DNA from: Rhodohalobacter barkolensis
GTDB taxonomy: Bacteria > Bacteroidota > Rhodothermia > Balneolales > Balneolaceae
Length of the DNA: 64,000 nucleotides
NCBI RefSeq assembly: GCF_002834295.1
Contig: NZ_PISP01000001.1
Coordinates: forward strand, 248,001 to 312,000
Direction of reading: 5' to 3'
Shown: positions 6,089 through 9,249 of the stretch, piece by piece
Numbering within the stretch: the stretch's first letter is position 1
Layout of the letters: every line of letters starts with the position of its first letter
Program-made: the position numbers and the translations under genes
Notes under the pieces: model-generated
Seen by the model: only the letters and a program-made list of their open reading frames with translations
Databases searched by the model: none
What the model was told of the DNA's origin: nothing

Positions 6089-6652
6089 ATGAAATTGTCA
6101 GTCAAAAATATGGTCTGTCCCCGTTGTGTTGAATCCGTTTCGGATATTCTGTCGGGGATGGATATTCCTGAAGCTCGTGTTGAACTTGGATCTGTTGAGT
6201 TGGAAAAAAAATTCTCAGAGTCAGAACTGGATCAGTTTAGTAAACGGCTTCAGGCAAAAGGGTTTGAGCTCATATTTGATCGTGAAACGGAACTGGTTAA
6301 TGACGTGAAATCTGCTTTAGTCAAGTATATTGATCATCTCGAGAATTCACAGATGCCGGACAAACTTTCCATCTTTATTGCAGAACAAACAAACTATAAC
6401 TACTCCTACCTTAGTAAAGTTTACTCCGATCAAACCGGTTATACGATTGAAACTCATCTTATTGAGATGAAAATAGAGCGGGTGAAAGAGCTGCTTGGTT
6501 TTCGGAAATGGACACTCAGTGAAATTGCCTGGAAACTGAAGTATAGCAGTGTGCAGTATCTTTCCAATCAGTTCAAAAAAGTGACCGGCATGACGGTTAC
6601 TGAGTATCGAAAGTCAGGAGAATCAGCCCGGAAAACTTTGGATCAAATTTAG
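6089..6652 (+). CDS. HMA-AraC fusion, predicted copper-responsive transcription regulator
   Basis: This is a 187-residue protein with two parts. Residues 1-70 look like a heavy-metal-associated fold with a metal-binding CxxC (MVCPRCVESV, Cys10 and Cys13). Residues about 95-180 are an AraC/XylS double helix-turn-helix (NYNYSYLSKVYSDQTG, WTLSEIAWKLKYSSVQYLSNQFKKVTG). A usual AraC arm is absent, so the HMA domain probably senses the metal. It lies 129 nt upstream of the two-HMA ORF and the P1B-ATPase on the same strand, which points to control of copper efflux. Regulation of copA is inferred from context. Confidence 0.8.
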   Translation: MKLSVKNMVCPRCVESVSDILSGMDIPEARVELGSVELEKKFSESELDQFSKRLQAKGFELIFDRETELVNDVKSALVKYIDHLENSQMPDKLSIFIAEQTNYNYSYLSKVYSDQTGYTIETHLIEMKIERVKELLGFRKWTLSEIAWKLKYSSVQYLSNQFKKVTGMTVTEYRKSGESARKTLDQI

Positions 6653-6781: not shown

Positions 6782-7225
6782 ATGAAAAAGCGTATTCAAA
6801 TAAATGGAATGCATTGCGCGGGTTGTGTCAACTCCGTTGAAAAGGTATTGAGCCGGGTTGAAGGTGTTAAAAATGCTAATGTTCAACTCACTACCGAAAG
6901 CGCAGAGATTGAAGTTGAGGGAGATAACTTTCCTTTTGAAGTGATACGCGAAACCGTTGAGAATGCCGGATATGAAGTTGAGGAGCCTAAAAGTGAGTCG
7001 GTAACCTTTCAAATTGGCGGTATGCACTGCACAGGATGCTCTTCGGCGGTAGAGAAAGCGATTCGAAAGCAGGATGGCATTGTAAGTGCAAATGTGAATC
7101 TAGCCGCAGAAAAGGCTTTTGTAGACTTTGACAGCTCGCAAATATCGATCGATCAAATTAAAGAGAGTATCGAAAATGCCGGTTATGAAGTGATTGAGCA
7201 GCAAAAAAAAAAGTTAATAAGTTAG
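6782..7225 (+). CDS. copA: Two-HMA copper chaperone-like ORF; N-terminal part of CopA in frame 0
   Basis: The 147 residues hold two complete heavy-metal-associated domains: GMHCAGC (Cys12, Cys15) and GMHCTGC (Cys83, Cys86). The frame stops at 7223-7225 just after a run of ten A (7203-7212). Reading one base back inside this run continues without a stop through a charged linker into the ATPase at 7276, giving about 822 residues, the usual size of a two-HMA CopA. As annotated, the short product could act as a soluble copper chaperone. Either this is programmed -1 frameshifting, as known for E. coli copA, or one A has been lost by mutation or assembly error. Confidence 0.85.
7207..7213 (+). promoter_or_regulatory. 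Candidate -1 frameshift slippery heptamer A-AAA-AAG
   Basis: In frame 0 the codons are AAA (7208-7210) and AAG (7211-7213), preceded by A7207, so the heptamer has exactly the phase used at the E. coli dnaX site. A shift of -1 here joins the two HMA domains to the ATPase. A possible stimulatory stem, AGCAGAA (7226-7232) with TTCTGCT (7257-7263), starts 12 nt downstream; its 24-nt loop makes it weak. No upstream Shine-Dalgarno-like stimulator is obvious. Confidence 0.5.
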
Positions 7226-7275
7226 AGCAGAAGCGAGAGAGAGAAGAGAAAAAACTTTCTGCTGCAAAACAGAAA

Positions 7276-9249
7276 ATGGTGCGGAGTTGGGTGGTTACCG
7301 TTCCATTAATGATATGGATGTTTCTCAGCATGGTGCTGGGTATTCACTTCACCTCACATCTTGTAATGGAAGTGGCTATGGTACTTGGAGCGGGTTACGT
7401 TCTATTCGGACCGGGTCTTGAAACCATCCGAAGCGCTATACTTTCCACCCGAAATTTAACTCCCAACATGGATGTCCTCATTGCTTTGGGTACAACCGCG
7501 TCTCTGATAACAGGGTTGGTGTCGCTGGGTTTTATGCTCGGACTGATTCAGTCACCTTTCTACAGTTTTGCCGGAATTGCCTCTATGATCATGGCGTTTC
7601 ATCTTACCGGGCGATATATCGAGGCAAAAGCGAGAGGACGAGCATCTGACGCAATCACCAAACTTTTGACATTGGAGGCCAAAACAGCCCGTATTATCAA
7701 AAACGGAGTTGAAGAGGAGATAGAAATCGGTGATTTGAGAAAAGGGGATGTCATGATAGTTCGTCCCGGTGAAACCATCCCAACCGATGGGGAAGTTGTA
7801 GATGGTAAAAGTTCTGTTGACGAGTCTATGGTTACCGGAGAGTCGATGCCGGTAGTTCGAGAAAAAGGGGATGAAGTTATTGGGGGTACGATAAACACAG
7901 AAGGCTCCATTCGTGTACAGGCAAAAGAAGTTGGGGAGAATACATTTTTGAATCGAGTAATCCAGATGGTAGAGGAAGCACAGGGATCCAAGATTCCTAT
8001 CCAGGATTTTGCGGATAAAGTAACGGCAATTTTTGTGCCTGTAATTTTAGTACTCACGGCAATTACATTTACGGTCTGGCTGGCTTTTCCCGAAACATTA
8101 CGTCCCATTTTAACCTGGGCCGATTCATTTATTCCCTGGATTATCACAGATCTTGAACCGGTTAGCCAGGCATTTTTTGTGGCTCTTGCTGTTTTGGTTA
8201 TCGCTTGTCCGTGTGCGTTAGGGCTGGCAACTCCAACAGCACTGATGGTAGGTACCGGATTGGGTGCCGAAAATGGAATTCTTATTCGAAAGGGTGAATC
8301 TATTCAGCGTCTGCAGGAAGTCACAACTTTTGTATTTGATAAAACAGGTACATTAACGAAAGGCGAACCGGAAGTTACGGATTGGTTCGAAATTGGAAGT
8401 GATGAGTTAGATCTCAAAAAAATAATCGCTGCTGCAGAAAACTACTCTGAACATCCGATCAGTAAAGCCATCTTAAATTATACAGGCACAAAAAATCTGC
8501 CGACATCGGAAGATTTTGAATCATTTACCGGAAAAGGTGTGAAAGCGATAGTGAATGGTTCGCGAATTCTGGCCGGTAATGTTGACTTACTTAAACAATT
8601 TTCTATCAAACAGTCTGAGGCGGTTCAGGAAAAAGCAGATGCACTTCATTCAGCCGGTAAAACTACGATTTTTCTGGTAATGGATGATGAGGTTGTTGCA
8701 CTGTGCGGAATAAAAGATACCATCAAACCGGAAACCGCCGATACAGTTCGAGAGATTCATCAAATGGGATATAAAACCGTGATGTTGACCGGAGATCAGC
8801 AGAAGGTAGCAGAGATCATAGCAGAAGAGATAGGCATTGACGATGTATTTGCACAAGTAAAACCGGATGAGAAAGCCGATGTGATCAAAAAACTGCAAGA
8901 AAAGGGAGAAGTTGTTGCTATGGTAGGCGACGGAATCAACGACGCTCCGGCACTGACACAATCTGATGTGGGTATCGCACTGGGAACCGGAACAGATATA
9001 GCCATCGAATCGGGGAGTATGATTTTGATTGATGGAAATCCGCAGGCCATTATCAGAGCGATTAATTTGAGTAATGAGACGTTTAAGAAAATACGCCAAA
9101 ATCTGTTTTGGGCTTTTTTCTACAATATCGTCATGCTACCCGTAGCTATGCTGGGATGGATGCACCCGGTGTTGGCAGAAATTGCAATGGCACTGAGCTC
9201 CATAAATGTTGTTGGAAATTCTAAACGTCTGCAAAAAAAGAAAATCTGA
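7276..9249 (+). CDS. copA: Cu(I)-type P1B-ATPase, membrane and catalytic part (-1 frame relative to the HMA ORF)
   Basis: The enzyme exports Cu+ or Ag+ across the inner membrane using ATP. Visible motifs in the 657 residues counted from the ATG at 7276 are TGES (177-180), the transmembrane metal site CPC (301-303), DKTGT with phospho-Asp345, the HP motif in [14 protein letters not shown], and the last helices with YN ([11 protein letters not shown]) and MALSS. The CPC, YN and MxxSS combination is the Cu(I) signature. The ATG at 7276 has no convincing ribosome-binding site, and the frame is open upstream to 7198. Translation therefore probably enters by frameshift from the preceding two-HMA ORF rather than starting here. 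Confidence 0.93.

Follow-up and report, generated by a model that had tools for sequence, protein, structure and literature searches.

A conserved poly-A run within copA probably lets a single gene specify a copper chaperone and a copper pump in Rhodohalobacter

The stretch of DNA analysed here, called the window throughout, spans 64,000 nucleotides of the Rhodohalobacter barkolensis genome (contig NZ_PISP01000001.1, positions 248,001 to 312,000), and hosts on the forward strand a copA gene whose two parts lie in different frames. The original prediction held that a run of ten A's separates the metal-binding HMA domains, in frame 0, from the ATPase, in frame -1. Direct reading of the sequence and its translation bore this out, along with the coordinates, the heptamer, the linker and the length of the joined product. 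The features of the locus are the following.

6089..6652, + strand: AraC-type regulator upstream of copA, with a weak CopZ-like N-terminus; likely a copper regulator
6782..7225, + strand: frame of HMA1 and HMA2, 147 aa, predicted soluble copper chaperone if no realignment occurs (PF00403 twice, NCBIfam CopZ models above cut-off)
6794-6976 and 7004-7189, + strand: HMA domain 1 and HMA domain 2 (PF00403)
7203..7212, + strand: A10 run, proposed realignment site; A9-A10 found at the same junction in 20 of the 22 readable species of the genus
7207..7213, + strand: A_AAA_AAG heptamer, in phase here, and in such phase in only 7 of the 13 split species
7213..9249, + strand: linker and P1B-type copper ATPase, -1 frame, 678 codons plus stop (translation, Pfam, NCBIfam)
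7222..7275, + strand: pump-frame linker, beginning at Leu 7222, which is conserved, and ending with the codon ahead of ATG 7276, no ATG, GTG or TTG inside; constrained as coding in the split species
7223..7225, + strand: TAG ending the short product; all 13 split species have a stop of this frame at the corresponding Leu codon
7226..7263, + strand: possible stem proposed earlier, not conserved (folding of 20 species)
7276..7278, + strand: earliest ATG in the pump frame (residue 22), taken for a structural Met rather than a start; ATG also in most in-frame species

The run is directly followed by a G, and the HMA frame ends in EQQKKKLIS. The -1 frame hosting the ATPase is open from 7198 to 9249, and a -1 slip on A-AAA-AAG would join 144 and 678 residues into a protein of 822, with the linker [20 protein letters not shown]. 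Pfam assigns HMA and E1-E2 ATPase domains to the two pieces, NCBIfam calls CopZ for the first and copper-translocating P-type ATPase for the second. The ATPase piece scores over the cut-offs of TIGR01525 and TIGR01511 (562.7 bits for the latter, cut-off 397), and below that of the E. coli-type equivalog PRK10671 (506.7 bits, cut-off 1316); family profile and N-terminal HMA domains together make it a predicted Cu(I)-exporting P1B ATPase, or CopA. The short product scores 120.2 bits against NF033795 (cut-off 91), with both HMA domains contributing, and is by this measure CopZ-like, a putative chaperone. Its nearest solved two-domain chains are the CopA N-termini 2rml and 1p6t, which we take to be of the B. 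subtilis type. The CopZ-like N-terminus of the AraC-type regulator is far below cut-off (E 5.8e-4) and is not matched by PF00403; an ORF resembling an AraC-type regulator also precedes copA in one related species (locus L168, genome G025).

The same junction was compared in 28 genomes of the genus, including the one hosting the window (G000), and is readable in 22. Halves are out of frame in 13 of the 22 species (G000, G009, G019, G022, G001, G015, G024, G003, G020, G018, G011, G006 and G021), always by -1, and always at a run, which is A10 throughout except for A9 in G015. In 7 species (G007, G013, G008, G014, G002, G004, G025) the halves are in frame and an A9-A10 run is kept. In the last two, G023 and G010, the halves are in frame, the junction carries no run, and an A9 is found a few codons downstream. 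The remaining six genomes are either cut by contig ends (G026, G027), show no ortholog (G017), or host only a relative which is 46-47% identical and in frame, and whose runs near the junction do not exceed A8 (G005, G012, G016). Identity among the 13 split species is as low as 64%. Between G000 and G009, 77% of the DNA letters and 89% of the protein letters are the same; silent sites have thus changed much, and A10 has been retained. On a tree of the ATPase part, which leaves G025 and G027 unscored, the split or fused state has changed at least three times in the genus, and four times if outgroups are included. Outside the genus, all 31 loci from 30 genomes are in frame, and A9 or longer runs occur near the junction in three: G097 (A10), G096 (A9) and G033 (A9, farther along the linker). 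A second A9 run is found farther along the linker in L089 and L090 (G007 and G013), where the locus of G033 (L108), which belongs to another genus, has its own. A broader scan of contigs kept 80 loci at 39-51% identity, apparently none from the group of the window, which do not enter these counts. One of the split genes, L101 in G006, encodes a CopA with a single HMA domain, still split by -1 at A10, and its short product (95-codon open frame) has the size of a classical CopZ.

That the two pieces need to be joined is suggested by the linker. Over the 20 pump-frame codons starting at the conserved Leu, pS is 0.92 and pN 0.24 among the 13 split species, against 0.36 and 0.39 for the same letters read in the other frame. 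Corresponding values are 0.76 and 0.19 for the ATPase core, and 0.77 and 0.30 for the HMA part, the latter obtained from 11 of the 13 species, leaving out L091, which a contig end truncates, and L101, which has one HMA domain. In 11 of the 13 species the pump frame has no ATG, GTG or TTG ahead of residue 22, these three being the start codons considered; in G022 and G001 the first of them is a TTG at residue 15. Since the linker is constrained as coding and most species offer no start ahead of it, translation must plausibly proceed through the run and a fusion is needed; the constrained linker could hardly be translated otherwise.

The run itself seems to be under selection. In 19 of the 20 run-bearing species the codon preceding the lysines ends in A, against 4.9 expected from the gene's own codon usage (pooled in the case of G025), a contrast which is no strict probability, because species share ancestry and loci were chosen for having a run. 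The codons involved include the avoided CTA in four cases, and CAA in seven of seven where CAG is twice as common. Two runs in other genes served as controls: the A10 of a gene which we call proline-dehydrogenase-like is kept as A9 or longer in 1 of 25 other loci of the genus, the A9 of a gene which we call deaminase-like in none of 12. These figures indicate that the copA run is conserved at the nucleotide level, beyond the need of the protein. The genome of the window (3.6 Mb) has 49 distinct runs of A9 or longer, both strands counted, 17 of which lie on the sense strand of an open frame of at least 100 aa. Seven of the 49 are A10 or longer, and two of these seven are inside such a frame, namely those of copA and of the proline-dehydrogenase-like gene. 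Only in copA do two open frames of at least 100 aa overlap one of the 49 runs. The longest run is an A14 (L239, G000:C5:20819-20832), found outside any sense open frame of that size. Two proline-dehydrogenase-like genes, 86% alike and 16 kb apart, are present (L242 and L266, G000:C3:158257-159105 and 174797-175645), one with the in-frame A10 run, the other without.

In all 13 split species a stop in the short-product frame overlaps the conserved Leu codon (TTAG in 10, CTAG, CTGA and CTAA in one each); in G015 and G018 it is preceded by an earlier stop. All 19 run-bearing loci counted in the genus (G025 is not among them) have the frame of this stop, hereafter the Leu frame, closed near the junction, against 3 of 15 loci without a run. 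Outside the genus, G097 has a run and an unclosed Leu frame. In a second set of 20 loci the Leu frame is closed in 6, and unclosed in G096, which hosts the only A9 run of that set. Both G097 and G096 are in frame. Within 8 codons, the Leu frame is closed in 20 of the 20 run-bearing species of the genus against 6.2 expected, the remaining frame in 19 against 14.7, and both non-pump frames in 19 against about 4.0. Closure of both frames was considered as a mark of slippage in either direction, a reading mostly dropped, as the Leu frame accounts for the excess. Closure of the remaining frame is about equally frequent with the run (18/19) and without (13/15), and is therefore uninformative.

We consider it likely that copA of this genus hosts a selected slippery poly-A site, and that one gene would specify, by partial realignment, both a two-HMA chaperone and a whole pump. 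According to this view, a slippery run is kept between the metal-binding domains and the membrane ATPase, and a share of the expression events would be realigned there by RNA polymerase, by the ribosome (-1), or by both. In R. barkolensis, unshifted reading would yield the 147-aa two-HMA chaperone, and -1 realignment the 822-aa CopA pump. In the seven sister species with the run in frame, the pump would be directly encoded, and realignment would yield the short protein. The original prediction of a programmed frameshift making chaperone and pump holds in that programmed realignment best explains a split common to 13 species; the dnaX phase and the stem it pointed to are not conserved. We infer realignment, the machine responsible for it, the ratio of the products and the chaperone role of the short one from sequence and comparative evidence only. 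The loss or displacement of the run in G023 and G010 counts against the explanation, and so do G096 and G097, which have a run but are in frame with an unclosed Leu frame. A further step, offered tentatively and somewhat short of an even chance, is that the gene is indifferent to frame: the run would keep both products available, and single-A indels would flip the gene between encoding the pump and encoding the chaperone without the loss of either.

It was proposed earlier that A-AAA-AAG stands in the exact dnaX phase, and this is true of the window. Relatives share the out-of-frame arrangement in 13 of the 22 species, the heptamer in this phase in only 7 of the 13 split ones; the run is one phase later in 5 of the others, and an A9 in the third phase in one. 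Moreover, any run of at least nine A's holds A_AAA_AAA in every phase, so that the phase alone is weak evidence. The letters of the proposed downstream stem (7226-7232 with 7257-7263) do pair, but folding of the 65 nt which follow the run is no stronger than that of shuffled sequences (z -0.51). Among the 20 species no conserved stem follows the run, z being below -2 in two, and no conserved Shine-Dalgarno-like motif precedes it, such a motif being present in three. The site thus departs from a dnaX-type -1 ribosomal signal both in heptamer phase and in its stimulators. All 20 runs are A9-A10 and kept beyond protein need, as expected of transcriptional realignment; all three phases are represented, and in two runs the next letter is T. 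The shift in both directions among orthologs, regarded in PMC3711429 as a further mark of transcriptional realignment, was not found, as 13 of 13 split genes require -1. According to PMC1088944, a large share of genomes avoids A/T runs from a length of nine onwards, and reporter frameshifting amounts to 63, 40 and 10% at 11, 9 and 7 A's according to PMC3711429. Run length and varying phase slightly favour transcriptional slippage, and suit it no worse than they suit a ribosomal site of the dnaX type. We give about an even chance to realignment by RNA polymerase adding or dropping A's, which puts it slightly ahead of the ribosome, and it is a fair possibility that both kinds of slippage act.

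The strongest alternative, a serious one though with rather less than an even chance of being right, is that transcripts are faithful and all realignment is -1 programmed ribosomal frameshifting, as in E. coli copA, where the shift is ribosomal (PMC5009743, PMC9548414), and in dnaX. The constant direction leans this way, a conserved direction being taken in PMC3711429 as a mark of ribosomal frameshifting; yet it may also reflect a split which arose once or a few times. Similarly, A_AAA_AAA or A_AAA_AAG is in phase in 20 of 20 runs, but such heptamers are inevitable at this length, and in the seven phase-one cases, all with CAA, the A's go on past the last ribosomal heptamer. The scarcity of stems and Shine-Dalgarno-like motifs also speaks against purely ribosomal slippage, and so do the in-frame species: 7 of the 7 with a run keep a TTAG in a frame which a -1 slip does not enter, against about 1.3 expected from synonymous codon choice. 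Descent from a split ancestor might account for part of this retention.

An improbable reading is that of a contingency locus, in which slipped-strand mispairing would change the length of the run and turn the pump on or off among the cells of a population. A9-A10 is indeed a mutable length, and the repeated alternation of split and in-frame states among species would fit. But run length and frame are shared within G000, G009 and G019, within G007 and G013, and within G014 and G002 despite much silent change, the third frame is found in no species, and CopA is no surface antigen. Still less probable are two overlapping genes translated independently, an HMA chaperone and an ATPase starting at ATG 7276 or by re-initiation. 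The ATG at residue 22 is the first start in 9 of the 13 split species, but a Met at this residue is equally common in in-frame species, and in the window no Shine-Dalgarno-like sequence lies ahead of it; G022 and G001 either have no ATG, GTG or TTG at residue 22, or have a GTG there, after the TTG at 15. Re-initiation at ATG 7276 was rejected in view of the 18 constrained pump-frame codons which precede it. Homopolymers are prone to sequencing error, but the loss of one A, by error or in a decaying pseudogene, an explanation the original prediction had allowed for, has a negligible chance and is excluded for the group, since 13 species, some only 64% identical, carry the same -1 split with both halves constrained.

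In the R. barkolensis genome, PF00403 matches only the two copA domains. None of the genus's 20 run-bearing genomes, some of which are incomplete, yielded a stand-alone PF00403 protein; matches are limited to the two of copA, or to a single one in G006 and, at a contig end, in G024. The three species with a different copA and no A9 or longer run (G005, G012, G016) do have HMA ORFs standing alone, 81-111 aa long. Elsewhere in the family, in other genera and among the matches listed, an HMA ORF of 74-105 aa often lies beside a CopA with one HMA domain (e.g. G030, G079, G082, G085). In contrast, the two-HMA CopA of G028, G095, G099 and G101, from sister genera, is fused and lacks the run, and PF00403 has no further match in these genomes. 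A missing CopZ hence does not demand a run, and the strict rule that the run replaces CopZ is weakened. Usually copZ is a gene of its own (PMC10187127); plausibly, we infer, copZ was first fused to copA, and a slippery run later restored a soluble product. In one of the two species lacking a run at the junction, G023, the start of copA (L100) carries an in-frame TGA at the first Cys of the HMA1 CXXC motif (GMH-TGA-AGC), a Cys in its relative G010. Candidate explanations are an error, a broken copy and selenocysteine; tRNA-Sec matches reach at best 45.4 bits in G023 and 44.5 in G000, the gathering score being 47.

In E. coli, copA is cut after the first HMA domain, at another, non-poly-A heptamer followed by a downstream structure; in Rhodohalobacter the cut is after the last HMA domain, at poly-A, with no conserved structure. 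The two systems would be alike in that one copA gives a short HMA protein and a full pump via a -1 shift, which is predicted here and in E. coli is described as yielding products of 70 and 834 aa (PMC5009743; also PMC9548414). The full pump is in E. coli the unshifted product, in the 13 split species the shifted one. The dnaX gene has A9 in T. thermophilus and mostly A10 in its two-ORF form (PMC3711429, PMC1088944); there too, an A9-A10 run gives long and short products, and one-ORF and two-ORF forms both occur. Gene and function differ, and transcriptional slippage has been demonstrated in T. thermophilus dnaX, whereas in copA it is predicted. Transposase and magnesium-chelatase genes also have a frame transition at poly-A, with efficiency rising with length (PMC3711429). 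Neither kind of gene is concerned with metal homeostasis, and transposase families shift in both directions, whereas the copA set is -1 only. Where a separate copZ lies beside copA, chaperone and pump are likewise side by side, but as two genes, with copA in frame, rather than as one gene with an internal frame change. One copA for chaperone and pump, as in E. coli, and the poly-A signal, as in dnaX and transposases, are thus already known. A search of titles and the starts of abstracts, a range outside which most subscription papers fall, found no published account of a poly-A site in copA, and the main text of PMC3711429, its supplements aside, makes no mention of copper, heavy metal, P-type or ATPase.

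Gene callers would list copA genes of this kind as broken, or as two. The species of this genus would form a natural series, one recoding site occurring with either product encoded, and slippage by polymerase and by ribosome may be told apart in it. If the explanation is true, copA genes would have come, probably independently, to a second means of making their own chaperone, differing from that of E. coli both in signal and in the place of the cut.
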